Origin: Chitinophagales bacterium
Lineage (GTDB): Bacteria; Bacteroidota; Bacteroidia; Chitinophagales; CAIOSU01
NCBI GenBank assembly: GCA_026003335.1
Contig: BPHB01000003.1
Coordinates: 62,001-126,000 of the forward strand
Length of the DNA stretch: 64,000 nucleotides
Direction: 5' to 3'
The translations under genes and the position numbers were made by a program. The notes beneath the pieces were generated by a model that was given only the letters and a program-made list of their open reading frames with translations, was not told the DNA's origin and did no database searches. Position 1 is the stretch's first letter; the number at the start of each line of letters is the position of its first letter. Of this stretch, positions 12,601-53,750 are shown one piece after another.

Positions 12601-15600
12601 TTACACCATCCGCTATCGCCAGCGCGAAGCATGTTGCGGCTGGTCAAAGCCGGTTTACTCCAGCGTGACCATATTGGGTGAATATACCCTAGGCGCCATT
12701 GACAACAGCGGTAAAACTATTTGCTATAACACACAGGCCAACGCCCAGGTGAGCTTTACTTCCAACCCCGAAGGAGCCACCGGCTTTACTTATCAGTGGT
12801 ATTATAAAAATGGTATTGACTGCCCTGTATCGGGCTCTACCACCGGCTGGACAGCCATCTCGGGGGCAACCAGCGCCACCCTGACGCAGGCCCAGTCCAA
12901 CAGCATGGGTAACCTCACCGAAAGCCGTGTACTGGCGTGCTGGGTAACACCCACCGGCTCACCGGTGTGCGGTACGGCAGGGTGGGCTGAAAACTGCTAT
13001 CTGATAACCGTATTACCGGAGGTGGAATATGGTGGCATTCAGTATGGCGACCAGGTGATTTGTCCGGGGGGTAATCCCAATGAAATCACCCTCTTCCCCA
13101 GCCCCAAGGGCTCGGGTTTCCAATATCAATGGTATATCAATGCCGGCAACAATCAGGGGAATCCGATTACCGAAAACTGGCCTATTGATACCCCGGCTTG
13201 CCCCACAGGTAGTGATCCCAATGTGCCGCTATGGGTACCCATTCCGGGAGCCACCAATCCTACTTACCAACCACCGCCACTGAACATCAGACAGGATTCT
13301 TCCTACAACGGTATTCCCAACCAGAATATCTATATCGGGTTTGCGGTGTATCTTACTCCGTATGCTACGGGAGGACTGCCGGCTTGCGGCACAGCCCACT
13401 GGGCTGACAGCAGCTGCCGCATCATCACCGAGGTAGATGCTACCGGTTTCTCACCCAACGCCATTACCGGCCTACCGTGTATTGCATCGCAGGGGTGTGA
13501 TGCGGATAGCACCATCTGGGTGTTTAGAACGTGTTATGGCGTGAATATCACTTCCCCGCTTAGCATTATCCCCTCGCCTGTTAACGGTACCTTCAACTTC
13601 TACTGGGAGACAAGCCCGGACTTTGTCAATTGGACCAACGTACGTACCACGTATAATGCCTCCAGTGATCAATATACGCTGGGTACCATCACGCAGGATA
13701 CCTATGTGCGGGCTTTTGTCAAGGCCATATCCCCACCCTGTGGTGATTCTTTGCGAACGCTCAACATTTGGCTGATAGATGTGAATGAGCCTTTTGACGC
13801 GGGCAACATCAGCGGGGCCGTGTCTTCTACTGAATGTTACGGCTATGACCCGCCAGCGATGACGGCCAATCCGGCGGGCAGTTATGACTACTATTACACG
13901 TGGCAACATAGTTATGACGGCACCAACTTCAAAGACCTTTATTATGATGGCACAGTCATCCAGGCGCCAGCCACGGTAGTGTACAACGCCCGCTATCTGG
14001 TGGTATCCGGTTCGGTGGTCTACAATGGGATCACCCACAATCTGAATGAAGACTTTTTGATCTACGACTCTACGGTAACCAATATCACCGGTTCGGGTCA
14101 GGTGGTAAGGCTCTACTCAGGGCCGGGGGATGCGTTCAAGACCTATGATCCGGATACGTTGCATTCCAACCGGCATTATCGCTACCGTGTGTATAGTGAG
14201 GGTTTCCCCGTGTGCTACACGGAAGCGGATCCGCCTGCATATAGCGACACTATCAGCTATACCATTCTTTCTGACCTCAATCCGGGCGCTATCACTCCGG
14301 ACACGTTCGCCTTTACGCAGTGTCTGAATTACGATGTGCCCACGCTGTCCATCAATCCCAGCGGCTCAATAGGTCCTTACACTTATCAGTGGTACATCAG
14401 TGAGGATTCGGTCAACTGGTCACCCATTAATGGAGCCAATGGCTCTTCCTATGACCATCCCACTCTGCTGACCGACACCACCTACTTCCGTGTTGCGGTA
14501 GATCCTGCAGGTAGTCCGGACTGTGCTATGAAATATTCTACCAATAGCGTGAAAATCAAGATCGGTCCTTCCACACCGGCAAATGCGGGTGCGGATGCCA
14601 CGATATGTGCTACCTCCCATACACTCTCAGCCAACATTCCTGAATCCCCCGGGGTAGGTACATGGACCCTCTATGCCGGCTCCGGTTCATTCCCCAATCC
14701 CAACAGCCCCAGCGGGCCGGTGAACAATCCTGGTTACGGCACCAACATTTACCGATGGACGATTGTTACGCCTCTGTGTGTGACCACCTATGATGATGTG
14801 GTAGTTGTGCGTCACCGCGAACCGGATAAAGCAAATGCCGGTGCCGATGCCGTATTGTGTGAATATGACTCTATCCAACTGAATGCGAATACTCCGGTTG
14901 TGCCCGGTGCTGTAGGCACGTGGAGTCTGGTGAGCGGCTCAGGCACCATAATATCGCCCAACGCTCCCAACACCTGGGTGAAAAATCTCACGCCCGGCCT
15001 CTCCGAATTTGAATGGACCATTACCACCAACGGGGTGTGCGGTGATTCCTCCGACCGGGTGAAAATCTTTACCAACATCTTCCCGGTGATGGTGTGGAAT
15101 GGGAGTGTCAGCACCGACTGGAACGATCCTGACAACTGGGGTTGCACCAATATCCCCGGGATCAACAACGTCATCACTATCCCGTATCTGGGGCCCACGG
15201 CCAATTATCCGGAAGTGTTGCCTGGCAACGTGGGCATCTGTAAAGACATCACCATTGAAACAGGAGCCAGCCTGAAAGTGGGCAAGGGAACCAAGTTTGG
15301 TGTCAATAAGGAGTTTGTATGGGCCAATGCGGGTCCTGACGTGGTGAAATGCTTCAATGATCCTCCGTTCACCATAGGAAAAGAACTGATACCCGGAGCC
15401 TCTGCCTATACCAACTATTCGTGGTCACCCGGAATATACCTTAATGACTCTACACTGGCTGAACCTACTGTGAATCTGAACAGCACCACGCTCTCTTACA
15501 TAGAGTTTGTGCTGACAGCCACCCACAAGCTGGATCCCACTAACGTGGACCGCGACACCATGCGGGTGATTATCCATCCCATTCCTACGGTGGGTATCAT

Positions 15601-16009
15601 CAGCGACACGTCTTATTGCGGTACGCCCATCCAGCTGGGGCTGAGCAATCCGGCCCCCCATACCACCTATGACTGGGATCCCGATGCAGGTCTGAACGAT
15701 CCCACTATCCCCAATCCGCTGGCTAGCCCCAATGTAAGCACAGAATACATCGTTTATATCTATAATGATTCCACCGGGTGCTCAAACCGCGATACGGTAT
15801 TTGTTACCGTAGGCACACCGGCTACCCTCGCCTGGAATCAGCATCCCAACCATGCCTGTGCTCTGGATCAGAATGTGACTTATTCGGTGAATAATACTGC
15901 AGGCTCTGTCTATTACTGGAGTATTACCGATTGGCGCGGCAGCACCATCAGCGGCAGTGGCAACACGGCCTCTGTGGATTTCGGTAGTATTCATCTCCGA
16001 TGCCATTGA
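9605..16009 (+). CDS. giant secreted repeat protein, first part (frameshifted near 15987)
   Basis: 2134 residues with a signal peptide (MKRYLLAGVFSIAFSLVAFAQ). Regions: residues about 30-160 unique, Tyr/Trp/Cys-rich; about 170-375 Ig/PKD-like modules; about 378-520 a parallel beta-helix-like stretch opening with YVYVASTGNDNSGCGG; about 538-820 collagen-like then poly-glycine; then many Ig/PKD-like modules (recurring YQW, GATN), including two that start ANAGAD. Such modules are typical of Bacteroidota surface adhesins and gliding proteins. The frame ends after VDFGSIHLRCH, yet the matching continuation is in the next frame: dropping one base near 15987 turns it into DFGVFISDAIDD. So this and the next entry are most likely one gene of about 3,200 codons, split by a real +1 shift or a sequence error. 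Confidence 0.8.
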   Translation: MKRYLLAGVFSIAFSLVAFAQPKVNVTVEIYEVERSSSLGDGLYGDPDVTWIMGANSNGSGSATFKTDWCYYYGEMGGTTWQNIRQMYQQLNSTATTIYLSLDAWENDCVIDEDDCGYNTHWYCPDGDGDRCNNSAIATIDFRNQPPCQWNYYYTNWCSYYRYRVRIYWTFAEPPTITASSATNHVLCMPGTGSPNSTTLSVSVNSTYGHTLGRYYQWQVSTNTDCASPGSFSDIAGATNSSYVPPQTAGTRLYRVKITSNCSADFGSLTTISNCMRVTYHPMSPAPAIQSGACGQTVLPGSINTLSTLQPPNPGAVANLTGYQWSATGGTFSSTSAPTTTWTAPSTPGSYTITVTYQNACQNYSATCTINVDSDPCDYVYVASTGNDNSGCGGPASPCRTVSYAVNNVLGSKRHIRVSTGTFNEGSTINMVNDLIIEGKYVINNGVWEKSVSSSATTNLVWGTGGSMEFVNSVICHRVGIKANGVSNWTLMDLNLTTTATTNTASGGYGCSNYTLWLNNTSGYSIIRCNITNGNAASGQPGPPGAAGAPGQPGARGGNGHTDGGHGSGGSGGTGGGPGTGVRQGGNGGRGGDGECEGCCCNQAQAGFLGTNGGGGASRDPVAGGGGSSDDDCSGGGNGANASASIYTAEAQAGANGSPGAYNPTNYTFSTYFTPAQGAAGSDGHGGGGGAGGGGGGGQHGTWCDDGGGSGGGGGGGGGQGGAGGQGGFGGGSTFGIYRNSNATSGTLTYVSATSGNAGAGGAGGAGGAGGAGGIGALGGDVNGGCGFICFGDVGFGGSGSAGGNGGQGGSGAAGSPGVSYNMYTVGSGAATLNNAFPSSAPALTIATNNGRYCNNSEIRLTKPSSSGNWSFNPSTLTLVNDLRDAPAGAAASSYTSSSGTIVVTASSAGTKYDINIGSQAYEDILVISNTSRTLPVISPSPTTICYQGSITLSATTWGTVLEHDWRIYPGTSLNTPVFVSTLPSVATPSLSCASYPCTYTIRYRQREACCGWSKPVYSSVTILGEYTLGAIDNSGKTICYNTQANAQVSFTSNPEGATGFTYQWYYKNGIDCPVSGSTTGWTAISGATSATLTQAQSNSMGNLTESRVLACWVTPTGSPVCGTAGWAENCYLITVLPEVEYGGIQYGDQVICPGGNPNEITLFPSPKGSGFQYQWYINAGNNQGNPITENWPIDTPACPTGSDPNVPLWVPIPGATNPTYQPPPLNIRQDSSYNGIPNQNIYIGFAVYLTPYATGGLPACGTAHWADSSCRIITEVDATGFSPNAITGLPCIASQGCDADSTIWVFRTCYGVNITSPLSIIPSPVNGTFNFYWETSPDFVNWTNVRTTYNASSDQYTLGTITQDTYVRAFVKAISPPCGDSLRTLNIWLIDVNEPFDAGNISGAVSSTECYGYDPPAMTANPAGSYDYYYTWQHSYDGTNFKDLYYDGTVIQAPATVVYNARYLVVSGSVVYNGITHNLNEDFLIYDSTVTNITGSGQVVRLYSGPGDAFKTYDPDTLHSNRHYRYRVYSEGFPVCYTEADPPAYSDTISYTILSDLNPGAITPDTFAFTQCLNYDVPTLSINPSGSIGPYTYQWYISEDSVNWSPINGANGSSYDHPTLLTDTTYFRVAVDPAGSPDCAMKYSTNSVKIKIGPSTPANAGADATICATSHTLSANIPESPGVGTWTLYAGSGSFPNPNSPSGPVNNPGYGTNIYRWTIVTPLCVTTYDDVVVVRHREPDKANAGADAVLCEYDSIQLNANTPVVPGAVGTWSLVSGSGTIISPNAPNTWVKNLTPGLSEFEWTITTNGVCGDSSDRVKIFTNIFPVMVWNGSVSTDWNDPDNWGCTNIPGINNVITIPYLGPTANYPEVLPGNVGICKDITIETGASLKVGKGTKFGVNKEFVWANAGPDVVKCFNDPPFTIGKELIPGASAYTNYSWSPGIYLNDSTLAEPTVNLNSTTLSYIEFVLTATHKLDPTNVDRDTMRVIIHPIPTVGIISDTSYCGTPIQLGLSNPAPHTTYDWDPDAGLNDPTIPNPLASPNVSTEYIVYIYNDSTGCSNRDTVFVTVGTPATLAWNQHPNHACALDQNVTYSVNNTAGSVYYWSITDWRGSTISGSGNTASVDFGSIHLRCH
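11218..12060 (+). repeat. collagen-like and glycine-rich coding repeat
   Basis: Inside the giant protein. It opens with a short Gly-X-Y run (GQPGPPGAAGAPGQPGARGG) and turns into long GGG/GGS/GGA/GGT tracts, broken by two Cys/Asp-rich patches (CEGCCCNQ near residue 600 and SSDDDCSGGGNG near 630) and by several non-glycine islands of strand-forming residues. The DNA is built of GGC/GGT/GGA codons and is prone to slippage. The protein would be flexible and hydrated, or a polyglycine-helix bundle. Confidence 0.85.
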
Positions 16010-19000
16010 CGACACCATCACGGTGAAAGAAAGAACAGCCAGCGGCTGCTGGGCCACTCTCCAGCAGATAGTGGATGTGGACACCTTCCCCACCATCACG
16101 GCAACCCATGGCGGTTCACCCATCTGTGAAACAGAAACCATTCAGCTCTACCAGAATGATGTAGGTACTATCCCCACAACCTCGTGGGTATGGTCTGGTC
16201 CGGCTTCTTTCAGCTCGTCAGCCAGGAACCCCACACGTCCCAATGCCCTGCCGGCTCACAGCGGAACGTACCAGGTCATTGCCTATACGGATGAAGGCTG
16301 TCCGGATACAGCCACGGTTGCGGTAACCGTAACGCCTGCACCGGCTATTACCACCCACCCGACAGCGCAGGCAGTATGCAGTGGCAGTAATGTGTCCTTT
16401 ACGGTAGCTGCCAGTGGCACCAGCCTCGCCTACCAGTGGCAGGAAAGCACCAATGGCGGCTCATCCTGGAGCAACCTCTCCAACGGAGGAATATACAGCG
16501 GTGTGACCACAACCACACTGAGCCTCTCTGGCGTGAGCACAACCATGCATAATTATCAATACCGCTGCGTGGTGACGGGCACCTGCTCACCTCCGGCACC
16601 TGCTGCCGTTTCCAATGCCGCCACGCTCACCATTAATGACGTTGCCATTACGGCCCACCCGTCCAGCGTGAACAAGTGTATAGGCACCAGCCACACCTTC
16701 ACGGTGACGGCTACGGGAGCCAGCCCGCAATATCAATGGCGGAAGAACGGCACCAACATCAGCGGTGCGACCAACGCCAGCTATGTGATCAGCTCCATAG
16801 CGGCAGGGGATGCCGGCAGCTATGATGTGGTGGTCAGCAACAGTTGCAACAGCGTGACGAGCAATGCGGCCACGCTGACGGTGGATGACATAGTGATCAC
16901 GGCCCACCCGTCCAGTGTGAACAAGTGTAGCGGCACCAGCCACACCTTCACGGTGACGGCTACGGGAGCCAGCCCGCAATATCAATGGCGGAAGAACGGC
17001 ACCAACATCAGCGGTGCGACCAACGCCAGCTATGTGATCAGCTCCATAGCGGCAGGGGATGCCGGCAGCTATGATGTGGTGGTCAGCAACAGCTGCAACA
17101 GCGTGACGAGCAATGCGGCCACGCTGACGGTAGATGACATAGTGATCACGGCCCATCCGTCCAGTGTGAACAAGTGTAGCGGCACCAGCCACACCTTCAC
17201 GGTGACGGCTACGGGAGCCAGCCCGCAATATCAATGGCGGAAGAACGGCACCAACATCAGCGGTGCGACCAACGCCAGCTATGTGATCAGCTCCATAACG
17301 GCAGGAGATGCCGGCAGCTATGATGTGGTGGTCAGCAACAGTTGCAACAGCGTGACGAGCAATGCGGCCACGCTGACGGTAGATGACATAGTGATCACGG
17401 CCCATCCGTCCAGTGTGAACAAGTGTAGCGGCACCAGCCACACCTTCACGGTGACGGCTACGGGAGCCAGCCCGCAATATCAATGGCGGAAGAACGGCAC
17501 CAACATCAGCGGTGCGACCAACGCCAGCTATGTGATCAGCTCCATAGCGGCAGGGGATGCCGGCAGCTATGATGTGGTGGTCAGCAACAGTTGCAACAGC
17601 GTGACGAGCAATGCGGCCACGCTGACGGTAGATGACATAGTGATCACGGCCCACCCGTCCAGTGTGAACAAGTGTATAGGCACCAGCCACACCTTCACGG
17701 TGACGGCTACGGGAGCCAGCCCGCAATATCAATGGCGGAAGAACGGCACCAACATCAGCGGTGCAACCAACGCCAGCTATGTAATCAGCTCCATAGCGGC
17801 AGGGGATGCCGGCAGCTATGATGTGGTGGTCAGCAACAGTTGCAACAGCGTGACGAGCAATGCGGCCACGCTGACGGTAGATGACATAGTAATCACGGCC
17901 CATCCGTCCAGCACCAGCTCATGTGTGGGAAGTAGCGTAACCTTCACGGTATCCTATACCGGAACAAATCCAACCTTCCAATGGCGGAAGAACGGCACCA
18001 ACATCAGTGGGGCCACCAACGCCAGCTATGTAATCAATTCCGTGGTTGCAGGCGATGCCGGCAGCTATGACGTAGTTCTGAGCAACAGTTGCAACAGCGT
18101 GACAAGCAACAGCGCTACCCTGACGGTGAACAACCCGCCTGCAGCTCCTACAGGCATTGCCGTGAAGGTCGTTTATTGTACCGACAACAACACGAAGTTT
18201 ACGCTGCTGACGGCTCTGAATCCGCCCTCGGGAGCCACCCTGCGCTGGTACAGCGGCTCCTCCTGCGGAGGCAGTCAGATTGGTACCGGTACTACCCTGA
18301 CCATCAATTCCAACGGGCAGCAATACTATTCAGTGCTTGCTGACAATGGTTCCTGCACCTCCGCTTGCGTAGCCACCTCTACGGCTATATATACTTATGC
18401 GGGAGGTTTCCCCTCCGGGCAGGCACATAATGAAGCCTACTGGGATCAGCGCGGCCTCTCTACACGCCACGATGTGGAAATACGCACCAACTGCAGTAGC
18501 AGCGGCACAGTGTATAGCTGGGATGCTACCAATAAATTCTTTAAGGATAATGCTGCCACCCCCAACATTATGTTGCCTACCGGCACCCAGACGGTGGCTT
18601 CCAACAGCTTCCCCGGTTACGGCACCAACACCAGTTGGAACAGCAATGCCTTCCAGTGGGACGACCAGAATGTGCTCTCCAGCAGCGTTTATGATGCCTA
18701 TCCGCTCTTCGTAAGCCCACTATCAGCAGTTGGCATGACATTCTGTAAGGCGATGGAGAATGACTATGCCGGTAATTGTCCTCTTACTACTAGTAGTAAT
18801 GCAACAGACTGTGTGGTCATTGATGGAGATTCCTCCACACTGCTTTATGCGCCTCCCCCTTATAATGATAGCTATGATGTATCAGGTAAAGGCAATACGA
18901 ATTGTCCGGCTGAAGGCATGATCAATGCCGGCAGTCTGAAAACAGGATGTACTGCTATTGATGAAATCTTTCAGCAGCAGCAGCTGGATGCCGCCAGCGA

Positions 19001-19277
19001 CAAGAGCTATTGCCAGGCTACCTACGGCAAGGGCTGGAGGTTGCCCACCGATATTGAAATGGGACATACTAACGACTGTACGACCACAGGAAACGGATTC
19101 GATGATGGCTTCAGGGGAAATACCTCTTTCACCATCTGGAGCAGCGCAAAAGGAAATGGTGACTACCGGAGATGGGGGATGAATATATCAACTGGAAGTT
19201 GGGCAAATACGATTCCCATCAATGTATCTACTACCGTACGAGTGCGGTGTGTTTATGATCCGATGTGGAATCGCTAA
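15957..19277 (+). CDS. giant secreted repeat protein, second part (continuation after frameshift)
   Basis: The frame opens only with a GTG at 15957, overlaps the first part by 53 bases and has no nearby ATG or signal peptide, so it is read as the continuation of the gene starting at 9605. It starts with the end of a PKD-like module (DTITVKERTASGCW), then an Ig-like module, six 83-residue Ig-like repeats (16644-18137), a further module and a C-terminal domain with YGKGWRLPTDIEMGH, TIWSSAKG and VRVRCVYDP. The last matches the WRLPT...WSS...RCV pattern of DUF1566/FISUMP-type domains, a fold related to C-type lectin-like domains. No T9SS sorting tail is seen at the end. A hairpin terminator follows. 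Confidence 0.78.
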   Translation: MATRPLWISVVFISDAIDDTITVKERTASGCWATLQQIVDVDTFPTITATHGGSPICETETIQLYQNDVGTIPTTSWVWSGPASFSSSARNPTRPNALPAHSGTYQVIAYTDEGCPDTATVAVTVTPAPAITTHPTAQAVCSGSNVSFTVAASGTSLAYQWQESTNGGSSWSNLSNGGIYSGVTTTTLSLSGVSTTMHNYQYRCVVTGTCSPPAPAAVSNAATLTINDVAITAHPSSVNKCIGTSHTFTVTATGASPQYQWRKNGTNISGATNASYVISSIAAGDAGSYDVVVSNSCNSVTSNAATLTVDDIVITAHPSSVNKCSGTSHTFTVTATGASPQYQWRKNGTNISGATNASYVISSIAAGDAGSYDVVVSNSCNSVTSNAATLTVDDIVITAHPSSVNKCSGTSHTFTVTATGASPQYQWRKNGTNISGATNASYVISSITAGDAGSYDVVVSNSCNSVTSNAATLTVDDIVITAHPSSVNKCSGTSHTFTVTATGASPQYQWRKNGTNISGATNASYVISSIAAGDAGSYDVVVSNSCNSVTSNAATLTVDDIVITAHPSSVNKCIGTSHTFTVTATGASPQYQWRKNGTNISGATNASYVISSIAAGDAGSYDVVVSNSCNSVTSNAATLTVDDIVITAHPSSTSSCVGSSVTFTVSYTGTNPTFQWRKNGTNISGATNASYVINSVVAGDAGSYDVVLSNSCNSVTSNSATLTVNNPPAAPTGIAVKVVYCTDNNTKFTLLTALNPPSGATLRWYSGSSCGGSQIGTGTTLTINSNGQQYYSVLADNGSCTSACVATSTAIYTYAGGFPSGQAHNEAYWDQRGLSTRHDVEIRTNCSSSGTVYSWDATNKFFKDNAATPNIMLPTGTQTVASNSFPGYGTNTSWNSNAFQWDDQNVLSSSVYDAYPLFVSPLSAVGMTFCKAMENDYAGNCPLTTSSNATDCVVIDGDSSTLLYAPPPYNDSYDVSGKGNTNCPAEGMINAGSLKTGCTAIDEIFQQQQLDAASDKSYCQATYGKGWRLPTDIEMGHTNDCTTTGNGFDDGFRGNTSFTIWSSAKGNGDYRRWGMNISTGSWANTIPINVSTTVRVRCVYDPMWNR
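16644..18137 (+). repeat. six tandem 249-base repeats encoding 83-residue Ig-like modules
   Basis: Units start at 16644, 16893, 17142, 17391, 17640 and 17889, exactly 249 bases apart. Units 1-5 are nearly identical at the DNA level (differences such as AGCGGC/ATAGGC and single third-codon changes); unit 6 is diverged in its first half and keeps the core YQW-type strand and ISGATNASYV. Each unit has two Cys (VNKC and SNSCNSV) that could form the Ig disulfide. Such identity shows recent expansion or continuing homogenisation. Confidence 0.93.
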
Positions 19278-43999: not shown

Positions 44000-44764
44000 A
44001 TGAAATCGGCAGAAAAAGCTATACAGTTTTTTTATACAATATGGGTTGTGCTCACATACATACCATTTATGGTATTTGCTGTAGTTGTGATTATTATAGC
44101 TCATAATCTGTTTAATGAAATAAAAGCGCATTGTATTGTTCTTCGTTATTGTCGCTGGTGGGCTGCAGTGTGGGCTTTTTTGTGTGGCATTAGGATAAAG
44201 GTGAAATATAATCCATCAATTAAAGAAGATCAGTCGTATGTCTTTGTGAGCAACCATTGCTCCAACCTGGATGCAATGGTGTGGGCTTATGCAGCACGGA
44301 ACAGTTCAAAGGGTTTGGCGAAAAAGGAACTCTTGCTTGTACCTTTTCTTGGGTATATTTTCAGCAAGGTATGCGTCATTGTAGATCGTGGGGATAAAGA
44401 AAGCCGTAGAAAAAGTATGGAGTTGCTGAAGGCTGAGATGAAAAAGGGCATTTCCCTGCTCATTTTTCCAGAAGGCACGCGTAACAAAAGCAATCAGCCC
44501 TTGCAGTCTTTTCATTCAGGCGCATTTCGCATTGCTGTGGAGTTGCACAAACCTATTGTGCCGGTTGTTATCTGTAACTCGGGTCATCTGATACCACCGG
44601 GAAGAGCTCTCTTTCGTCCGGGAACGGTAAAATGCATATTTCTTGAACCGATTTCCGTGGAGGGCAAAACAGAAACCGATATTGAAGACTTAAAAAGTGA
44701 AGCTTACAGACGTATGGAAGCAGTGCTATTGCAGGAGGACGTGCGTTTTGCTTCCTCGGCTTAA
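44000..44764 (+). CDS. plsC: 1-acyl-sn-glycerol-3-phosphate acyltransferase
   Basis: 254 residues. One or two N-terminal membrane segments (FYTIWVVLTYIPFMVFAVVVIIIA), then the acyltransferase HX4D box in SNHCSNLDAM, FPEGTRNKSNQPLQSFHSGA as the substrate-binding block, and VPVVICNSGH. It makes phosphatidic acid from lyso-PA at the inner membrane. Its last 4 bases overlap the stop of the convergent glycogen synthase/phosphorylase gene. Confidence 0.9.
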   Translation: MKSAEKAIQFFYTIWVVLTYIPFMVFAVVVIIIAHNLFNEIKAHCIVLRYCRWWAAVWAFLCGIRIKVKYNPSIKEDQSYVFVSNHCSNLDAMVWAYAARNSSKGLAKKELLLVPFLGYIFSKVCVIVDRGDKESRRKSMELLKAEMKKGISLLIFPEGTRNKSNQPLQSFHSGAFRIAVELHKPIVPVVICNSGHLIPPGRALFRPGTVKCIFLEPISVEGKTETDIEDLKSEAYRRMEAVLLQEDVRFASSA

Positions 44765-47700
44765 AGCCATTTGATGAGGTTAAAATCTGTCTTTTTTTTG
44801 AGCAGCGGATGTTTAGGGTATATTCTGAAACCATATTCAAACACGCCCGACTGAGTTACGGGAAATCGTGTGGCATAGGTTGCCCTGCTGCGATTTTTTT
44901 GGGTAACGGTCATTTCCTGTTTAAAAATAATTTCCCTGGGTTTTCCGTGATTTTTGCTTTGAATAAACAAAACCTCCATGCCGATTTCTTCCGGACTCAG
45001 GTTGCCCAGATTTAATGTGATTTGTGCGTAGTATTCTTCTCCAAGTGTTAGTGCTTTATTGGCTGAATCATGAATGTCCATGTCCATGATTTTAATGTAT
45101 GGCCAGTTGGCAAGTATTTTATTTTTCCATGCACAGAGTTCCTTCACCGCGCTGAAATCATTTTGTTTGATTTCCCGGAAATATTCATACATGGGTTCAT
45201 AGAAGGTATTGATATATTCATCTAGCATTCTGCGCGTAGTAAAGTAGGGAGCAATATCGGTCAGGTTCAATTTGATGCTTTCAATCCAGCGTTCGGGTAT
45301 TCCGTGCGCATTCCTGTCAAAAAAAGTGGGTATAACATCTTTTTCAAGAATAGAATAGAGTGTTTCACTGTCCAGTTCATCCTGATAGTCTTTCCGATTA
45401 TAGGTGTTTTCAAGCGGCAAAGCCCATCCTGCACCTGGCTTATAGCCTTCAGCCCACCAACCATCCATGACGCTGAGGTTTAAGACTCCGTTAAGAGAAG
45501 CCTTCATGCCACTGGTACCCGAAGCTTCCATAAGCCGCTCAGGATTATTCAGCCAGAGGTCAACACCCTGAACCAAGAGGGTTGCAAGCTCCATGTCGTA
45601 GTTCTGCAGGAAAATGATTTTCCCTTTAAAATCGGGCATCTGAGAGACTTCAATTATGCGTTTGATTAAGTCTTGGCCGGCTTTGTCTTTCGGGTGGGCC
45701 TTGCCTGCAAAAAGAAATTGCACAGGCAGCTGTGGCAGATTGACCAGATGCCGTAAGCGCTCAAGGTTGTGAAACAGCAAATGGGCGCGCTTATATGTGG
45801 CAAACCTGCGGGCAAAACCTATTATAAGAGTTTCTTCATTAAAGGCATGCAGAATGTCAAGAATACCTTTGGGGTTTTCATGCCGTTGGCTCATCTCGGA
45901 GCGGAGCTTATCGGTGAGCGCTTTAAGCAGTCTGGACTTCAAAAGCTTCCGGATATTCCAGATACGTTTAGCCTCTGCATGCTGCAGCTTTTTCCACTGC
46001 TGCGGGTCAGGCGGAGGCAGTTGATAGGCATCAGTGCCAAACACTTCCCTATGCAGTGCCTGCCAGGCTTTATCTGTCCATGTGGAATAATGGACGCCAT
46101 TGGTTATATGACCGATGGGCAATTCGCTGGTGATAAATCCGGGATACAGCGGCTGAAACATTTCTCTTGATACCTGTCCATGTAATCTGCTTACGCCATT
46201 TATTTCACCACACAGCCGTGCAGCGAGGTAGCTCATGGAAAATTTCTCTGCGGCATTGGTTTCATCTATTCTTCCCAATCCGATAAATCGCTCCCAAGGG
46301 ATATTAAATACATTAGGATATTCTGACAGATAAGCACGTATGAGGTCTTCACTGAAGGCATCATGACCGGCAGGAACCGGAGTGTGTGTGGTGAAGAGGC
46401 TGGTAGAGCGCACAATTTCAAGCGCCTCATCAAAGCTGATGTTTTCTTCCAGCACAAGATTTTTGATGCGCTCCAATCCTACGAACGCTGCATGTCCTTC
46501 ATTGCAATGATAGATATCAGCTTTTATTCCCATAGAACGCAACAGGCGTTCACCTCCGATTCCAAGCAATATTTCCTGTTTAAGGCGATATTCAATATCT
46601 CCGCCATAAAGCTGATGGGTAATGGTGCGGTCATCGGGCTGATTATCTTCTATATCGGTATCCAGGAGATACAACGGCACGCGTCCCACCTGAATCTGCC
46701 ATATTTTGGCATATACCTTTCTCCCCGGCAGGGATACGCTTATTTTTTTCCAGTTGCCCTCTTCGTCTCTTACTGGCAGTACCGGAAGGAATGAAAATTT
46801 TTGCGATTTGTAAACGGCAAGTTGCTCGCCATGCGGTGAGAGCTCCTGTTTAAAGTAACCATAGCGATACAGCAGCCCAACTCCTACCATATCAAGGCCC
46901 GTGTCGCTAGCTTCTTTGAGGAAATCTCCGGCAAGGATGCCCAGACCGCCTGAATAAAGCCGGATGATGGCATTCAGTCCATACTCCATACAGAAGTAAG
47001 CCACTCTGGGCTGTCTGGTTTTGGGTTGATCCATGTAGGAGCGGAATGCGCTATATACGGCATGCAGTTTTTCCTGAAAGGCTGCATTTTTTTCCAGCCG
47101 TTTCAGTTTTGCATAAGGAAGCACATCCAGCAGGGCTACAGGGTTTTTGTGATACTCTTCCCATAGCTGCGGGTCGATCATTTCAAAGAGTTCTGCTGCT
47201 TCCTGATTCCATGACCACCAAAGGTTTTTTGACAGTTCAACCAGGGGGGAGAGGCTTTCAGGTATCTCTGTTTTCACAAGAATTTTTCTCCATTTAGGCT
47301 GATTGTTTTTTATGTGCCGCAAATGGCGTTCGTCACCTATAGGCGTTATTTCATGTTTTTCTTTAAAGAGATACTCTCTGCCAAGGCTTTTCTGCAAAGC
47401 AATGTCAAAAGCTTTCTTGTAATAAGTAATGAGATTGTTCCACTGCACTTTTTTGGACAGTTCGTGAGCATGGAATCGTTCTTCAGCTACTTCACCCGGG
47501 CTCTTGCGGGAGAAATCACGAATGATTGTGGCTATTTGCTCTGAGGTTTGCTCATCATTGTAATCATGCCGTTCAACAATATAGATGCCCTTGTATGCGT
47601 TGCTGAAATGGGTTTTTATCCATTTTCCGAAGCCCGTAAGCTGAGTGGTAATGGTTGGTATGCGGAAAGCCAGGCTTTCCAGCGGTGTATATCCCCACGG

Positions 47701-49017
47701 CTCATAATAGGAGGGAAAAGCAGAAATATCAAAGCCGATAAAGAGGTCATAGTAGTGCAGATTAAAAATGCCGTCATCGCCATTCAGATAGGTGGGCGCG
47801 AAAATCACCTTTACCGGGTCTTGTCGGTTGTTTGTCAGTTTGCAGGCATAAATTTTTTTCATGATAGGGTCGGAGTCTGCTCCCTGGAGGTGGTGTGTAA
47901 GCAATTCAGGTGTGAAAGTGTTTAGCGCTGAAAGATTTTGCATTCGGTCCAGCACTTCCTTTCTGGGGCCGGTGTGGTGTGCGGGCACCATGATAAAAGC
48001 TACAGTCTTTTGATGCAGGGCATTGGACTGCTTTAATCTTGCCAGTGCATCCAGAAATACATCAATCCCTTTGTTGCGGAATTCATAACGGCCGCTTTTG
48101 GCGATGAGCAGGGTGTTTTCAGGCAAATCATCACCGGTTAAGGCCTTGGCTACCTGCAGCAGTTTTTCCCGTGCCTGTTTTCGCTTTTCTTCAAATAGGT
48201 TTTCATCGGGGACAATTCTTATGTCAAACCCGTTTGGTGTAATGAGGTCTGGTTCTTCTTCCAGAAACTGTTTACATTCCTGAGCAGTTATTTCGCTCAC
48301 TGTAGTAAAACAGTCAGCATACTGGGCTGTGCGCTTTTCCAGGGATTGTTTGGCAACCACATTGAATTGCCGCGCCATCTGGTCGGCATTATACTGGCTG
48401 AGTTTATCATAAAGAGGCAGGCCATTGCCCGCTATAGAGCGGCCCAGGACCGTAGCATGGGTGGTGAATACAGTGCCTATCTGAGGAGCAAATTCGTGCA
48501 GATAAAGGGCTCCGGCCCCGGTCATCCATTCATGAAAGTGGGCTACAATTTTGTCATTGTAGGACAGATGAAATCGGTAAAAGCTTTCTATGACCTTACC
48601 AGCGCAATAACCAAAGAGGGCGGGTTCAATATAATCCCACTGGCCGGTGAGGGAATCTACATGATATTGCATCCACAGGTGTGTAAAGATTTCGTCCTTT
48701 TTGGTATAGAGCGGTGTAAAATCAACCAGAATGGCTATTGCATTGGATGCGTTTTTCCAACGGCCTGTTTTGATACGCAAACCTTCCTGCTGGGCTTGTT
48801 CTTTCCACGATGCAAACAAGTCATAGTCTTCAACAAAATCAGCGTTTTCATTTCCTTTCCACACATCTGGGCCGATGGTGATGTAGTTTTCTCCCAGTTC
48901 TTCTACCAGGGTAGCCGATTTGGTGGCGATAACTGTGTAGATGCCACCTACTTTATTGCATACCTCCCAGCTTACTTCAAACAAGTAGTCGGGGCTAAGC
49001 AGTTTTTCTTCGCTCAT
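44761..49017 (-). CDS. glycogen synthase / alpha-glucan phosphorylase fusion
   Basis: 1418 residues. Part 1 (about 1-590) is a GT-B glycogen synthase of the eukaryote-like GT3 type: VSWEVCNKVGGIYTVIATKS, HFHEWMTGAG, TTHATVLGRSIAG, FPSYYEPWGYTPLES. Part 2 (about 610-1418) is an alpha-glucan phosphorylase of the Thermotoga-like GT35 type: NLWWSWNQEAAELFE, EYGLNAIIRLYSGGLGILAG, TTHTPVPAGHDAFSEDL, FARRFATYKRAHLL and the pyridoxal-phosphate site MEASGTSGMKASLNG. One chain could thus lengthen and shorten alpha-1,4-glucan. Last gene of the 53600-44761 operon; its ATG overlaps the GH57 stop (ATGA). Confidence 0.93.
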   Translation of the reverse strand: MSEEKLLSPDYLFEVSWEVCNKVGGIYTVIATKSATLVEELGENYITIGPDVWKGNENADFVEDYDLFASWKEQAQQEGLRIKTGRWKNASNAIAILVDFTPLYTKKDEIFTHLWMQYHVDSLTGQWDYIEPALFGYCAGKVIESFYRFHLSYNDKIVAHFHEWMTGAGALYLHEFAPQIGTVFTTHATVLGRSIAGNGLPLYDKLSQYNADQMARQFNVVAKQSLEKRTAQYADCFTTVSEITAQECKQFLEEEPDLITPNGFDIRIVPDENLFEEKRKQAREKLLQVAKALTGDDLPENTLLIAKSGRYEFRNKGIDVFLDALARLKQSNALHQKTVAFIMVPAHHTGPRKEVLDRMQNLSALNTFTPELLTHHLQGADSDPIMKKIYACKLTNNRQDPVKVIFAPTYLNGDDGIFNLHYYDLFIGFDISAFPSYYEPWGYTPLESLAFRIPTITTQLTGFGKWIKTHFSNAYKGIYIVERHDYNDEQTSEQIATIIRDFSRKSPGEVAEERFHAHELSKKVQWNNLITYYKKAFDIALQKSLGREYLFKEKHEITPIGDERHLRHIKNNQPKWRKILVKTEIPESLSPLVELSKNLWWSWNQEAAELFEMIDPQLWEEYHKNPVALLDVLPYAKLKRLEKNAAFQEKLHAVYSAFRSYMDQPKTRQPRVAYFCMEYGLNAIIRLYSGGLGILAGDFLKEASDTGLDMVGVGLLYRYGYFKQELSPHGEQLAVYKSQKFSFLPVLPVRDEEGNWKKISVSLPGRKVYAKIWQIQVGRVPLYLLDTDIEDNQPDDRTITHQLYGGDIEYRLKQEILLGIGGERLLRSMGIKADIYHCNEGHAAFVGLERIKNLVLEENISFDEALEIVRSTSLFTTHTPVPAGHDAFSEDLIRAYLSEYPNVFNIPWERFIGLGRIDETNAAEKFSMSYLAARLCGEINGVSRLHGQVSREMFQPLYPGFITSELPIGHITNGVHYSTWTDKAWQALHREVFGTDAYQLPPPDPQQWKKLQHAEAKRIWNIRKLLKSRLLKALTDKLRSEMSQRHENPKGILDILHAFNEETLIIGFARRFATYKRAHLLFHNLERLRHLVNLPQLPVQFLFAGKAHPKDKAGQDLIKRIIEVSQMPDFKGKIIFLQNYDMELATLLVQGVDLWLNNPERLMEASGTSGMKASLNGVLNLSVMDGWWAEGYKPGAGWALPLENTYNRKDYQDELDSETLYSILEKDVIPTFFDRNAHGIPERWIESIKLNLTDIAPYFTTRRMLDEYINTFYEPMYEYFREIKQNDFSAVKELCAWKNKILANWPYIKIMDMDIHDSANKALTLGEEYYAQITLNLGNLSPEEIGMEVLFIQSKNHGKPREIIFKQEMTVTQKNRSRATYATRFPVTQSGVFEYGFRIYPKHPLLKKKTDFNLIKWL

Positions 49018-50294
49018 GTTTTTTTGATTTGTTCTGCAGATGCTGAACGATTTTTTATTGTTTTCCTGGCTCTTGGTTTTGCGTGAGCCGTGTCCTTGTT
49101 TTTGCGCCCTGAAGCTTCCTGCACACGAAGGGTAAAATCACTGATGACATTCATATAGTTAATGAATGCTTCGTAGGGTGAGCCGTAAGGGTTGAAATAT
49201 TTATGCACGTCACCGTCAGAGAAAAATTTGGTGCACATGTAGTAAAAGTGATCACTGGTTTGCAGATATTCCCAGTCGCGCTGGATATCGGGGTCATCAC
49301 AGGAAGTCGCCAGCGATTCAAGCTGGTATAGCGATTCAAAAGCATCATCCTGCAGGTCGTTGCCCAGCCAGGCACTCAGGTCGCGTTCCTCATCTGCCCA
49401 TGAGATAGGATAGGGCACGTGAATAGGGCCCACAGGGCTTAGTAGTTCGGCAGCCTCACCCGGAGTAATAAAACCGTAATTGGTGGAGGAGAATATTTTT
49501 TTGGGGAGGTGACGTATAAAATCAAAGATACCGGTTTCGGCCCATTGATGTTCACCAAAGGTTTCGTAATCCATAAATAAATTGACCAGCTCTTCTTCGG
49601 CAGGCAGGTTATTGAGCCAGGCGGCAAATTTATCTGCGGTAAGGGGCCATTCTGACCACGACCGGTTAGAGAAGCGGAAGGCAATATCATCGCTGAGGCG
49701 AAAGTTTTTCAGCAGCAACTTGAGTTTGGGGTTGCGTGCGTTGCAGTACACATAGTTGGGGCTACGCCATCCCAGAATGTGCCGTGCGCCTTCGGTAAGC
49801 TGAGCCTTAAAACCCATTCCGGCAACCGTTTCCCCGATGGCATCCGAATAGATCAGCTCGGTGTTCCGGAAAACACGGGGTTTCTGGCCAAACAGCCGGT
49901 AGATCATTGCGGCATGTTTTTCACATTGCCGGATAAATTCCTTTTTGCTCTTCAATGAGGATAATGAGTGGGCATAGGTTTCACACAAAAATTCCACACA
50001 GCCGGTATCGGCCAGTTGCTGAAAGCTTTCCAGTACGTGGGGAGCATATTTTTTAAACTGATCCAGTGCGGTTCCGCTTATGGAAAATGCAATTTTAAAC
50101 TGTTTGCCATACTCCCTGATAAGCTCAAGTAACACACGATTGGTGGGTAGGTAGCATTTTTGCGCTACTTTCTGCAAGATAGATCGGTTGGCTACTTCGT
50201 CATAATAGTGATGGTTGACGCCTATGTCAAAAAAGCGGTAGGTTCTTAAGCGGAATGGCTGGTGCACCTGAAAATAAAAGCAGATATAGCGCAT
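49014..50294 (-). CDS. glycoside hydrolase family 57
   Basis: 426 residues. FYFQVHQPFRLRTYRFFD at the N terminus carries the family's HQP motif; FRNTELIYSD (nucleophile-type Glu of motif 3) and VNLFMDYETFGEHQW (motif 4 with catalytic Asp) are present. GH57 members include alpha-amylases, 4-alpha-glucanotransferases and branching enzymes; this length and a glycogen operon suggest an alpha-amylase or glucanotransferase acting on cytoplasmic glycogen. No signal peptide. Starts 27 bases after the GT4 gene and overlaps the next by 4. Confidence 0.9.
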   Translation of the reverse strand: MRYICFYFQVHQPFRLRTYRFFDIGVNHHYYDEVANRSILQKVAQKCYLPTNRVLLELIREYGKQFKIAFSISGTALDQFKKYAPHVLESFQQLADTGCVEFLCETYAHSLSSLKSKKEFIRQCEKHAAMIYRLFGQKPRVFRNTELIYSDAIGETVAGMGFKAQLTEGARHILGWRSPNYVYCNARNPKLKLLLKNFRLSDDIAFRFSNRSWSEWPLTADKFAAWLNNLPAEEELVNLFMDYETFGEHQWAETGIFDFIRHLPKKIFSSTNYGFITPGEAAELLSPVGPIHVPYPISWADEERDLSAWLGNDLQDDAFESLYQLESLATSCDDPDIQRDWEYLQTSDHFYYMCTKFFSDGDVHKYFNPYGSPYEAFINYMNVISDFTLRVQEASGRKNKDTAHAKPRARKTIKNRSASAEQIKKT

Positions 50295-50321: not shown

Positions 50322-51626
50322 TTAATAAACCATTGTTTCTGAAGTCTGATGAATAAGCGTTTGGTAAATGGCTTTCACCTTGGCTGCTGCGTCATCCCAT
50401 TTTAGTTTTTCCACTTCTTCTTTACCATATTTCTCAAACATTTTATTGATGCCTTTATAATGCAGCAATCCGTAAATGCTGTCGGCTATGGCGTCAATGT
50501 CCCAGAAATTCACTTTAATGGCGTGTTTGAGTATTTCGGCAACCCCTGATTGTCTGGAAATAATTACCGGCACACTGGAGCGCATGGCTTCAAGGGGAGA
50601 AATGCCAAAAGGTTCAGAAACCGAGGGCATTACATAAACATCACTCATGGCAAAGATACGGTCCACCTCGTCCCCTTTAAGAAATCCGGTAAAATGAAAG
50701 CGGGAGGAGATGCGTAACTGGGCTACTCTTTTGATGATTTTTTCCAGCATGTCTCCGGTTCCGGCCATGGCAAACCTTACGTTTTTATCCTTCTGCAAAA
50801 CGCGGTAAGCTGCTTCAACGAAATAGTCGGGCCCTTTCTGAAAGGTGATGCGGCCCAAAAAAGTTACCAGCTTTTCGGGGAAAGGCTTTGCATAATTACC
50901 TGCAATGGTATATGCCGGCATTACGGCATTGTGCACGGTTACTACTTTTTCCGGAGCAATACCGTAGCGGCTGATGATGATGTTGCGTGTGAAGTTACTG
51001 ACGGCAATAATTTTATCGGCTGCCTGCATGCCGGCACGCTCCAGATCATACACCTGCTGATTAATATTTTCTCCGGAGCGGTCAAATTCGGTAGCATGCA
51101 CATGCGCTATGAATGGTTTGCCGCTTACTCCCCGGGCGGCCATGCCGGCAGGATAGGTGAGCCAGTCGTGGGCATGAATGACGTCAAATTCAAGTATGGA
51201 AGCCAGTCGGGCAGCTATCAGTGCGTAGCGGGCTACTTCATTAAACAGGTCACTGCCATATTCTCCGCTGAAGGTGAAAGTGGTGGAGAAAATGTCGCGG
51301 TGGATGTCCGTTTTTTCTTGCAGGGCTGTTTCGGTAAGGCGCCTATATTCCAGAGCGCTCAGATAAGGACGCAGCAGGGAGTGGATACTAATCATGGTAA
51401 ATTTCTTCCACACCTCGCGGTGGCTTTCCCTGACAACATCCAATGGGATATTGCTGGCATTCAGCAGTTGAATGCCGCTTGCCGGTTCGTCACCAAAAAC
51501 ACGGGGCACAACGAACAATACTTCCACGCCATTGTTCAGCAAGCCGAGCGACAGACCGTAGCAGGCCGTGCCAAGTCCGCCAGAGATGTGGGGCGGAAAT
51601 TCCCAACCAAACATCAGCACTTTCAT
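50322..51626 (-). CDS. GT4 glycosyltransferase in the glycogen operon
   Basis: 434 residues, GT-B fold. MLMFGWEFPPHISGGLGTAC-like start (VLMFGWEFPPHISGGLG), VIHAHDWLTYPAGMAARG and the donor loop SVSEPFGISPLEAMRSSVPV with E-x7-E. KIIAVSNFTRNIII and VTFLGRITFQKGPDYFVEA are typical of GT4. Its place between debranching enzyme and GH57 suggests a glucan elongating or priming role, although the fusion protein already carries a synthase. It starts 3 bases after the debranching-enzyme stop. Confidence 0.88.
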   Translation of the reverse strand: MKVLMFGWEFPPHISGGLGTACYGLSLGLLNNGVEVLFVVPRVFGDEPASGIQLLNASNIPLDVVRESHREVWKKFTMISIHSLLRPYLSALEYRRLTETALQEKTDIHRDIFSTTFTFSGEYGSDLFNEVARYALIAARLASILEFDVIHAHDWLTYPAGMAARGVSGKPFIAHVHATEFDRSGENINQQVYDLERAGMQAADKIIAVSNFTRNIIISRYGIAPEKVVTVHNAVMPAYTIAGNYAKPFPEKLVTFLGRITFQKGPDYFVEAAYRVLQKDKNVRFAMAGTGDMLEKIIKRVAQLRISSRFHFTGFLKGDEVDRIFAMSDVYVMPSVSEPFGISPLEAMRSSVPVIISRQSGVAEILKHAIKVNFWDIDAIADSIYGLLHYKGINKMFEKYGKEEVEKLKWDDAAAKVKAIYQTLIHQTSETMVY

Positions 51627-51629
51627 AAA

Positions 51630-53600
51630 CTATTTCTCCACCAATACTTTTTGCTTCAAAAAACCATCGGCCCGGCTATAACGTTCCAGCAGGTAGTGTA
51701 TCCGAAGCAGTTCAGCAACGCTCCATGCCTGGGAGATTGCGCCATTGGGATAGTGGGGAGGGTCACCATCAAAGATTTCTGAGATTGTAGAAATTCCGTG
51801 ACGGGTCATCTCCGGTGCGAATCCTTCATACAACTGGCGTATGAATGCCACACCTTCATTACCGTAAACTTTCAGGTATGCTTCCGCAAAGTGTCCCAGT
51901 AGCCAGGGCCATACGGTGCCCTGATGATAGGCCAGATCGCGGGTGCGCTGGTCACCACCATAGGAGCCTTTGTAGCTTGGGTTTTTAGGTGAAAGGGTGC
52001 GCAGGCCACGTGGGGTGAGCAGCTCACTTTGTACTTTGGCCACCACGGCAGTTTTGATGGAGTCATGAATGGGCGAGAAGGGCAGGGAGACGGCAAAAAT
52101 CTGATTAGGCCTTACTGACCAGTCCTTTTCATCACCGTTTACCACATCTGCAAGATATCCTTTCTCCTCATCCCAGAAGGTAAGCAGAAAAGATGTTTCA
52201 ATCATACTGGGCAGGTGGCCCCATTGATGGATAAATTTATCATCATCGGCCAGTTCAGCCAGCTTGAGTGCAAAACAAACGGCATTATACCAGAGGGCAT
52301 TAATTTCCACAGGCATGCCGGTGCGCGGGGTTACGGGCTTTCCTTCCACAACGGCATCCATCCAGGTAAGGGCTATGCCCGGATAGCCCGCACTTATCAG
52401 TCCGTTGTCTTGCATTTTAATGTTGTAGTCGGTTCCATCGCGATAGGCCTCCAGTATGGCACGCATTTTTGTTTTGTAGGCAGCCCACACCTTCACAGCG
52501 CTGTTGGTGAAAATGGCGTAATGCTGCAGAGTCCAGAAAAACCAGAGGGGAGCATCCACACTGTTGTAAGCATGCCCCATATTGGGGAAGAGGCCGTTTT
52601 TAAGCTGTGCAACCATGGTGTCCAGGGCGGCTTTGCAAAGGCGGGGTTTGCCCGTAACCAGGGTAAGCCCGGGGAGGGAGATAAAAGTATCACGGCCCCA
52701 ACGGCCAAACCAATGGTAGCCGGCAATCACCTCCGTTTTTTTGTCGCGGATGACGAGAAATTGTTTTGCGGAGTTGAGCAGGCAGTTTTCAAAAGAATTG
52801 CGCGGTACACGCAGCTTCACTTCTTTTGTAAAGCGGCTTTTGAGCGAACGGGGCTGCATTTCCTCCAGGCTGGCGCTGATAATGACGGATTCACCCTTTT
52901 TCATCTGCATTTCAAAAAAGCCCGGGGTAAAGAGGTCTTCGCGGTAGTCATAGCCGCGTTCCTGCTCGCGCACGTATTCAAAGTTGTAGTACCAGTCAGG
53001 ATTGGAGATATATTCAGCCTGCCGTGACGTTTGCAAATAGAGGTCAGTATAGCCGGCATAGAGGCGTATTTTGATGCCATTGGGTATTTCCATGTATTTT
53101 TTATTGGCGTACACATTGGCATGGCTAAGGTGGTGGTAGTTGCGAAAGGCCAGTAAAGGCATTAGGCGCAGGGTAATGGGAGCATGGGCCTTTTGCAGGG
53201 TGTAGCGAATCATTACGCAGTCGGTATCAGAAAGCAGGATGATCTCTTTCTTCAGAATGTTTCCGCCTACGTCAAAAATCCAGAACGGAATAGGATCGGC
53301 TGAAAAGTCCAGCAGATATTTATGTCCTTTGGGATGATATAGACCCGGATAGCGGTGAATGGCCAGGTTAAACACTGCTTCATGCTGCAGGATGGTTTCA
53401 TCAATGGAAGACAAAAGCACATGATTGTCATCATCTATCTGAGGCTGGGGGGCAACCAGAAGCCCGTGATATTTGCGGGTATGGCAGTTGATGATGGTGG
53501 AGCTACAGTAGGCTCCACGTTGATTGGTGCGCAGCAGCTCTTTATCCAGCGCATACTGGAGATTGACTAATTGGTTTTTATCAAACTGAATGTAAGCCAT
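51630..53600 (-). CDS. glycogen debranching enzyme
   Basis: 656 residues from the ATG at 53600 (MAYIQFDKNQLVN); the frame extends 30 codons further without family-like sequence. An N-terminal beta-sandwich (GAYCSSTIINCHTRKYHGLL) is followed by an (alpha/alpha)6 barrel with AGYHWFGRWGRDTFISLPGL, where the Asp of GRDTFI is catalytic in the family, then TWMDAVVEGKPVTPRTG and LAYHQGTVWPWLLGHFAEAY. It hydrolyses alpha-1,6 branches (amylo-alpha-1,6-glucosidase type). First gene of the glycogen operon; divergent from mscS with 150 bases between. Confidence 0.92.
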   Translation of the reverse strand: MAYIQFDKNQLVNLQYALDKELLRTNQRGAYCSSTIINCHTRKYHGLLVAPQPQIDDDNHVLLSSIDETILQHEAVFNLAIHRYPGLYHPKGHKYLLDFSADPIPFWIFDVGGNILKKEIILLSDTDCVMIRYTLQKAHAPITLRLMPLLAFRNYHHLSHANVYANKKYMEIPNGIKIRLYAGYTDLYLQTSRQAEYISNPDWYYNFEYVREQERGYDYREDLFTPGFFEMQMKKGESVIISASLEEMQPRSLKSRFTKEVKLRVPRNSFENCLLNSAKQFLVIRDKKTEVIAGYHWFGRWGRDTFISLPGLTLVTGKPRLCKAALDTMVAQLKNGLFPNMGHAYNSVDAPLWFFWTLQHYAIFTNSAVKVWAAYKTKMRAILEAYRDGTDYNIKMQDNGLISAGYPGIALTWMDAVVEGKPVTPRTGMPVEINALWYNAVCFALKLAELADDDKFIHQWGHLPSMIETSFLLTFWDEEKGYLADVVNGDEKDWSVRPNQIFAVSLPFSPIHDSIKTAVVAKVQSELLTPRGLRTLSPKNPSYKGSYGGDQRTRDLAYHQGTVWPWLLGHFAEAYLKVYGNEGVAFIRQLYEGFAPEMTRHGISTISEIFDGDPPHYPNGAISQAWSVAELLRIHYLLERYSRADGFLKQKVLVEK

Positions 53601-53750
53601 AGCGCATTTTCGCTTTTGAAAGAACGGCAGATTTCCGTCTTTTTCCAAAAATGCAAAAATTCCCCGGTTTTCCGAAAGCACAGACGTCAATAGAATTAAT
53701 AAAGCGTTATCATTTAACCATTCTTATATTCGCTGAAACAGCTGTTAACC

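Follow-up and report, generated by a model that had tools for sequence, protein, structure and literature searches.

The fused gene and its parts

One gene in a 64,000-nucleotide stretch of a Chitinophagales genome (positions 62,001 to 126,000 of contig BPHB01000003.1, assembly GCA_026003335.1; the whole stretch is referred to here as the window) is the subject of this analysis. It encodes a family GT3 glycogen synthase and a family GT35 α-glucan phosphorylase as a single chain: the open reading frame (ORF) of 1418 amino acids occupies exactly positions 44761-49017 of the minus strand and has no internal stops; read on the plus strand, the same interval has many. Three Pfam families follow one another along the chain: Glycogen_syn (PF05693; E = 1.2e-106 and 358.3 bits, exceeding the curated cut-off of 27), DUF3417 (E = 3e-32) and Phosphorylase (PF00343; E = 1.2e-31). 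The top NCBIfam match is made by the phosphorylase half, to TIGR02094, with 818.6 bits (cut-off 191.7) for residues 672-1275 and the entire profile (1-600 of 600); the score for the classical glycogen phosphorylase, TIGR02093, is 97.6 bits, below the cut-off of 552.9. Judged by these matches, the phosphorylase half (residues ~572-1418) is a GT35 protein of the TIGR02094 type. A warning for annotators follows from the strength of that match: a phosphorylase name taken from TIGR02094 would hide the synthase half.

The solved proteins nearest in sequence to residues 571-1418 are phosphorylases (PDB 9l6i and 20yr), and those nearest to the N-terminal half are human, yeast and other GT3 synthases. 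In a predicted fold of residues 1-1200 (57 alignment rows; mean predicted local distance difference test score, pLDDT, 86.8; predicted template-modelling score, pTM, 0.84), the part from residue 6 to residue 551 matches the glycogen synthases of human and yeast (Z up to 38.4), while residues 572-1200 match the glycogen phosphorylase of Segatella copri (Z up to 41.3; 49% identity, 1.9 Å over 626 aligned residues). The original prediction, made from the letters of the window, had placed a 1418-residue chain here (its strand was not given), had seen synthase and phosphorylase together in it, and had likened the synthase half to the eukaryotic GT3 type: the ORF, the Pfam and NCBIfam matches and, for the eukaryotic likeness, PF05693, an alignment to human GYS1 and the fold match bear this out. 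Structure prediction of the interface, which had also been proposed, gives a divided answer: the pTM of 0.84 supports a fixed arrangement of the halves, and a second prediction, for residues 1-1174 of the Chitinophaga rupis fusion (30 alignment rows), speaks against it with a pTM of 0.56. On these models a fixed contact between the halves is not established.

The Segatella copri protein (9l6i; the mutant is 20yr) has been deposited as a glycogen phosphorylase (alpha-glucan family phosphorylase). Unlike the fusion, it stands alone, as an 852-residue chain with no synthase attached, and it is a close relative of the "split" phosphorylases that are encoded beside a GT3 gene (1421.7 bits to one of them, L067). 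Nothing on its structures was found in the literature searched. (A side observation: residue T1146 of the window protein aligns, as read by eye, with R583, the residue mutated in 20yr (R583A), and so is not an arginine.)

Both active sites are retained

The window protein was aligned with 77 other full-length fusions; nine partial fusions, seven of them cut by the end of a stretch and two (L064, L094) not, were excluded. All 78 sequences are distinct (five pairs are >90% alike), and the window protein is 46.9-55.1% identical to the other 77, of which 70 come from named genome records. Thirty-one sites were counted, 13 in the GT3 half and 18 in the GT35 half, and 29 of them are invariant. The two that vary are both GT3 sites: K22, where 70 of the 78 have the window's residue, and H162, where 76 do. 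H187, R193, R310, K316, E439, W441, G442 and E447 in the GT3 half, and H878, R1071, K1076, E1164 and K1172 in the GT35 half, are found in 78/78. The GT3 motifs TTHAT..GR, GRYEF.NKG and YYEPWGYTP.E are present when the fusion is aligned to human GYS1, and K1172, R1071 and K1076 line up with the residues for pyridoxal phosphate (PLP) and for phosphate in the classical phosphorylases. We assume for these sites the roles that they have in yeast and human GT3 enzymes and in rabbit phosphorylase, and take K1172 to be the PLP lysine and R1071 and K1076 to bind phosphate. The spacing from R547 to W576, which spans the linker, is 22-29 residues in every one of the 78.

The original prediction held both active-site signatures to be intact and pointed to a careful alignment as the way to detect loss of catalytic residues from one half; in the alignment of 78 fusions the catalytic sites of both halves are kept throughout. 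With so many sites invariant, the PLP lysine included, it is highly improbable that one half is catalytically dead and acts as a glycogen-binding or regulatory platform, as is known in other enzyme fusions (for example GlgA-GlgB with an inactive branching domain, in the excerpted text of PMC11046441). As far as sequence can decide the matter, loss of catalysis in one half is rejected. Nor need an assembly artefact or a chance open frame detain us: the same join in 77 other distinct full-length proteins, including those of Chitinophaga rupis DSM 21039 and Dysgonomonas sp. HGC4, effectively excludes both. The fusion is a real two-enzyme protein, as the original prediction correctly had it, and its wide conservation makes that prediction an understatement.

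The GT3 half lacks the eukaryotic switch

In GYS1 and Gsy2 an arginine helix presumably binds glucose-6-phosphate, and the inserted helices of the second GT3 domain are taken to form the tetramer interface. The fusion lacks these features of the regulated eukaryotic-type enzymes: 1) The window protein retains one of the six arginines of the GYS1 type, and the 78 fusions keep none (24 rows), one (47) or two (7); five splits keep one or two, and 16 long stand-alone rows keep two to five. 2) The PF05693 positions between 343 and 403 are unmatched in the fusion, and ~47 insertion residues are missing from its alignment with GYS1. Measured between two anchor columns, the insertion spans 15-33 residues in the 78 fusions, 27-29 in splits and 73-78 in the 16 long-type rows. 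One long stand-alone GT3 of the phylum aligns with GYS1 through the insertion without a break, its RRQRIAQRNR corresponding to RRQRIIQRNR. The fusion thus resembles the stand-alone GT3 enzymes (human GYS1, yeast Gsy2, the long Bacteroidota type) in family, fold and catalytic motifs, and differs from them in its shortened insertion, its fewer switch arginines and the phosphorylase at its C-terminus.

The short GT3 type is without the switch whether it is fused or split, and the loss is therefore a trait of this type of GT3 and not of the join. Opposing activities in one chain had been thought to require control, and an assay of each against phosphate and glucose-6-phosphate had been suggested. 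Control by glucose-6-phosphate is not borne out; control by phosphate or by substrate levels is a reasonable supposition; for a conformational switch, the two fold models point in different directions.

Distribution of fused and split forms

In a sample of the phylum, PF05693 is found in 21 of 392 genomes: one has the fusion (the window's), four have split pairs, 13 have the long stand-alone type and three give weak matches. For TIGR02094, a sample of this kind gives 328 of 392 genomes with a match, and among the matches listed only the window's lies in a frame of >1000 residues. The window's order has PF05693 in 23 of 298 genomes, as nine fusion frames (the window's included), 11 long-type proteins, one fragment and two weak matches; the fusion frame of one genome of this order, G543, is broken near its start. 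Among the genomes listed, PF05693 is absent from the six others of the window's own family, within which the distribution is accordingly patchy.

The order of G238 (it looks like Bacteroidales), a genome with a split phosphorylase closely similar to the Segatella copri enzyme, has PF05693 in 347 of 392 genomes. The best 150 places listed there comprise 14 long and 136 short-type GT3 sequences, and in 123 of the 136 the open frame runs to 1370 residues or more. This cannot be taken as an unbiased proportion, since the ranking is by score and split pairs of lower rank may be under-counted. Nine of the 13 shorter places were fetched: seven hold a complete tandem split pair, and the other two are incomplete. 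Together with L066-L069 these make eleven complete split pairs, with GT3 directly before GT35 in all. Tandem split pairs (L066-L069, L197-L199, L201-L204) have the same two enzymes as the fusion, in the same order and adjacent, but in two chains (GT3 of ~550-590 residues, GT35 of ~850-860) instead of one.

At 78 of 80 loci taken from named genome records, GT3 and GT35 lie in one frame, eight of these as partial frames. The exceptions are L074, with two neighbouring frames (perhaps a frame break), and L142, whose GT3 is cut by the end of the stretch. L065 (G534:C98) has a fusion-type GT3, then a 201-residue ORF, then a phosphorylase that is only 36% identical and distant in the tree; the genome also carries a fusion, L060, and L065 possibly represents replacement of a partner. 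The survey across Bacteroidota that the original prediction called for thus finds the fusion widespread (the orders of the window and of G238, 80 loci), and confinement to the window's genus is rejected by the occurrences across order and phylum. Two further candidates were dismissed. A triple fusion with GH57 in G700 (a 1891-residue frame) is not one, the GH57 being in another frame; an archaeal occurrence, L075 (labelled Heimdallarchaeota), falls among Bacteroidota rows in both trees and lies on a 6.7 kb contig, with an ORF that we take to be transposase-like, and is probably a misplaced Bacteroidota contig.

Is this, then, merely a plain fusion derived from an operon, in which two constantly co-expressed enzymes have been joined, work independently and gain nothing from the join beyond equal amounts? 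The existence of eleven complete pairs as adjacent genes, a short and variable linker of low model confidence, and the second fold prediction, which lacks a fixed arrangement, would agree with that. Set against it are the persistence of the join between proteins that are ~50% identical, the joined form at 123 of those 136 short-type places, and a linker spacing held at 22-29 residues. We regard a plain fusion as an appreciable possibility, though on balance we doubt it.

Fusion or fission?

GT3 sequences of fusions and splits together make up one side of a branch that separates them from the long type (support 100 in a 71-row tree), and the phosphorylases of the fusions and four splits are likewise one side against the sampled stand-alone ones (support 100 in the larger GT35 tree). 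With both halves branching apart from the stand-alone types, the GT3-GT35 pairing looks old.

The direction of change is on shakier ground. In 26-row trees of both halves the four split pairs stand beside two Marinilabiliaceae fusions (SH-aLRT, the Shimodaira-Hasegawa-like approximate likelihood-ratio test, 99 for GT35; support 85/93 for GT3), and in 0% of 200 bootstrap trees of the GT3 set do the fusions form one clade. The larger GT35 tree again places the splits beside the Marinilabiliaceae fusions (support 100); the 71-row GT3 tree places four splits beside an Alistipes fusion instead (support 92). In approximately unbiased (AU) tests, one clade of fusions is not rejected for the 26-row GT35 set (p = 0.103), and for a 70-row GT3 set (p = 0.853) the tree that keeps the fusions together beats the quick free tree by 25.4 log units. 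Derivation of the splits from fusions by fission is favoured by some trees and is not shown. The window's GT3 groups with rows of its own order and with Chitinophaga rupis (support 93), and the placement of its GT35 is not settled by the tree; in both trees the closest neighbour of Chitinophaga rupis is G640, a member of the window's order, which makes Chitinophagales the probable source of the window.

(A technical note: at 68% identity the 78 fusions were reduced to 50 for the 71-row GT3 tree, and they were reduced further to 18 for the 26-row trees. L185, L188 and L190, which repeat the genes of three splits, were omitted from the larger and the 26-row GT35 trees; L065 was left out of the 70-row GT3 set of the AU test and of both 26-row trees; four 700-residue stand-alone rows were left out of the 26-row GT35 tree; and for the 26-row GT3 tree the row of L102 was trimmed to its C-terminal 560 residues.)

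The operon and the other glycogen genes

The fusion is the last gene of an operon that reads debranching enzyme, GT4, GH57, fusion (Table 1). The stop of GH57 and the start of the fusion overlap by four bases (ATGA), which suggests that their translation is coupled. Among the 80 loci surveyed, 62 have the fusion with at least 4.9 kb of upstream sequence, and in 44 of the 62 the upstream order is GH57, GT4, debranching enzyme, as in the window.

Table 1. The fusion, its parts and its operon partners in the window
Feature	Position	Strand	Basis
Fused GT3 glycogen synthase - GT35 alpha-glucan phosphorylase, 1418 aa	44761..49017	-	ORF, Pfam/NCBIfam, 77 other full-length fusions
GT3 part, residues ~9-548	47374..48993	-	PF05693; GYS1 alignment; fold match
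GT3 catalytic candidates H187, R193, R310, K316, E439, E447	within 47374..48993	-	alignment to human GYS1
Residues 507-519, site of the GYS1 glucose-6-phosphate arginine helix; only R514 kept of six	47461..47499	-	alignment
Linker, residues 549-571; low model confidence at 561-579	47305..47373	-	alignment, fold model
DUF3417 domain, residues 585-683	46969..47265	-	Pfam
GT35 catalytic region, residues 672-1275; K1172, R1071, K1076, H878, E1164	45193..47004	-	TIGR02094, alignments, conservation
Phosphorylase C-terminal part, residues 1276-1418	44764..45192	-	aligns to end of Segatella copri glycogen phosphorylase
GH57 glucan-active enzyme	49014..50294	-	Pfam
GT4 glycosyltransferase, distantly glycogen-synthase-like; TIGR02149 112.8 bits, below cut-off 302.4	50322..51626	-	Pfam, NCBIfam
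Glycogen debranching enzyme, GDE_N + GDE_C; TIGR01561 416.6 bits, cut-off 364.15	51630..53690	-	Pfam, NCBIfam

Profile searches of the window's genome (3.9 Mb in 24 contigs, 100% complete by the tool's figure) return the fusion gene alone for each of PF05693, TIGR02094 and PF00343. PF08323 matches two operon genes and one GT5 starch-synthase-like fragment of 277 residues (L152, G000:C1:1550626-1551324) that covers only the first half of the models and is kept in a genome that also has a GT3; this agrees with the remark, in the excerpted text of PMC11046441, that Bacteroidetes retain a GlgA-GT5 fragment. GlgC is the best model for none of the genome's eight nucleotidyltransferase matches, one of which (L162) has no NCBIfam match at 1e-20. 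The candidate source of UDP-glucose is a relative of GalU that covers the whole model at 273.1 bits. From the GT3 family, the lack of a GlgC match and the GalU relative we infer that UDP-glucose is the likely donor.

The operon gene is the only GH57 in this genome. It lacks both of the branching-enzyme fingerprints given for GH57 in the excerpted text of PMC11206854, as do all 58 GH57 ORFs of >380 residues from the loci surveyed, and its candidacy as the branching enzyme is rejected on these fingerprints. The genome has no match to CBM48; its single GH13 protein reaches no NCBIfam cut-off, and a branching enzyme is absent among the eight matches listed for it.

The phosphorylase half might serve mainly synthesis, by supplying the GT3 half with short maltodextrin primers that it makes or trims. 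Phosphorylase reactions run in both directions, a general trait of the family that the excerpt of PMC11046441 also states; the GT3 enzyme of heterotrophic eukaryotes needs a primer and depends on glycogenin (same source); and the fusion holds phosphorylase and synthase together in one molecule. However, TIGR02094 and PF00343 find no other phosphorylase for breakdown in the window's genome, and the debranching enzyme, a partner in breakdown, is encoded in the same operon; we consider a primer role improbable.

How the fusion may work

The reading that we prefer, and think probable, is of a two-headed glycogen enzyme: a UDP-glucose-dependent synthase and a phosphate-driven phosphorylase in a fixed 1:1 ratio, steered by substrate levels. 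The N-terminal half is predicted to extend glycogen at its non-reducing ends with glucose from UDP-glucose, and the C-terminal half to shorten those ends by phosphorolysis, releasing glucose-1-phosphate. The join would fix the ratio of synthase to phosphorylase and place both on the same particle. Since the GT3 half is without the glucose-6-phosphate switch, net direction would probably be set by substrate levels, UDP-glucose on one side, phosphate and glucose-1-phosphate on the other. With both heads on, the sum would be UDP-glucose + phosphate → UDP + glucose-1-phosphate, a costly cycle that could respond fast.

A number of points weigh against this reading: 1) Simultaneous working of both heads is beyond what a sequence can show. 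2) Fixed contact of the halves has one fold prediction for it and one contrary to it. 3) The split pairs, too, are without the switch arginines and the insertion, so that the lack cannot be ascribed to the join. 4) The pairing, at L065, of a fusion-type GT3 with an unrelated phosphorylase implies that the partnership is not strict. 5) None of the three operon partners lies upstream in 15 of the 62 loci. 6) The score of the GalU relative is below its curated cut-off of 326.8 bits. 7) Searches for CBM48, GH57 and GH13 reveal no recognised glycogen branching enzyme in the window's genome, although a debranching enzyme is present, so that glycogen is only the presumed polymer. 8) According to the excerpted text of PMC4432691, mixed rumen communities have yet to be shown to cycle glycogen.

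One can go further and suppose that, in much of the Bacteroidota, a synthase without the glucose-6-phosphate switch is instead joined to a phosphorylase as a single-chain glycogen valve, governed by phosphate, with a fixed 1:1 ratio and continuous turnover. It would underlie the cycling of glycogen and the spilling of energy by Bacteroidota of gut and rumen, and the adjacent genes of Segatella and its relatives would be later splits. The other placement of the splits in the 71-row GT3 tree and the missing switch, common to splits, make such a valve less probable, and we think it unlikely. The two-headed enzyme steered by substrate levels is a candidate source of ATP-costing glycogen cycling in bacteria; the link of such cycling to the fusion and its split relatives is offered as a hypothesis only.

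Relation to known systems

The fusion is two known families in a combination not found described in the literature searched, a weak negative, since most subscription journals were outside its coverage. Other glycogen enzymes do occur joined: TreS-Mak, GlgA-GlgB of Criblamydiaceae and Waddliaceae, and GlgB-MalQ of Neisseria (PMC11046441, as excerpted). As described there, these too are glycogen enzymes in one chain, but none joins a chain-building synthase to a phosphorylase. According to the excerpted text of PMC10395257, GlgC is lacking from all Bacteroidota members, and the guess made there is of an enzyme more like that of humans; the fusion bears on how Bacteroidota synthesize glycogen without GlgC. 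With both sites strictly conserved and the eukaryotic allosteric switch absent, it also offers a clean test object for the balance of opposing reactions.

Two other ORFs of the window may be recorded. The first, at 9605-16009, encodes 2134 amino acids and matches no Pfam family at E 1e-5; the second, at 15957-19277, encodes 1106 amino acids with a series of immunoglobulin-like domains, in which Ig_3 matches six stretches, as well as a CHU_C-associated Ig-like domain.

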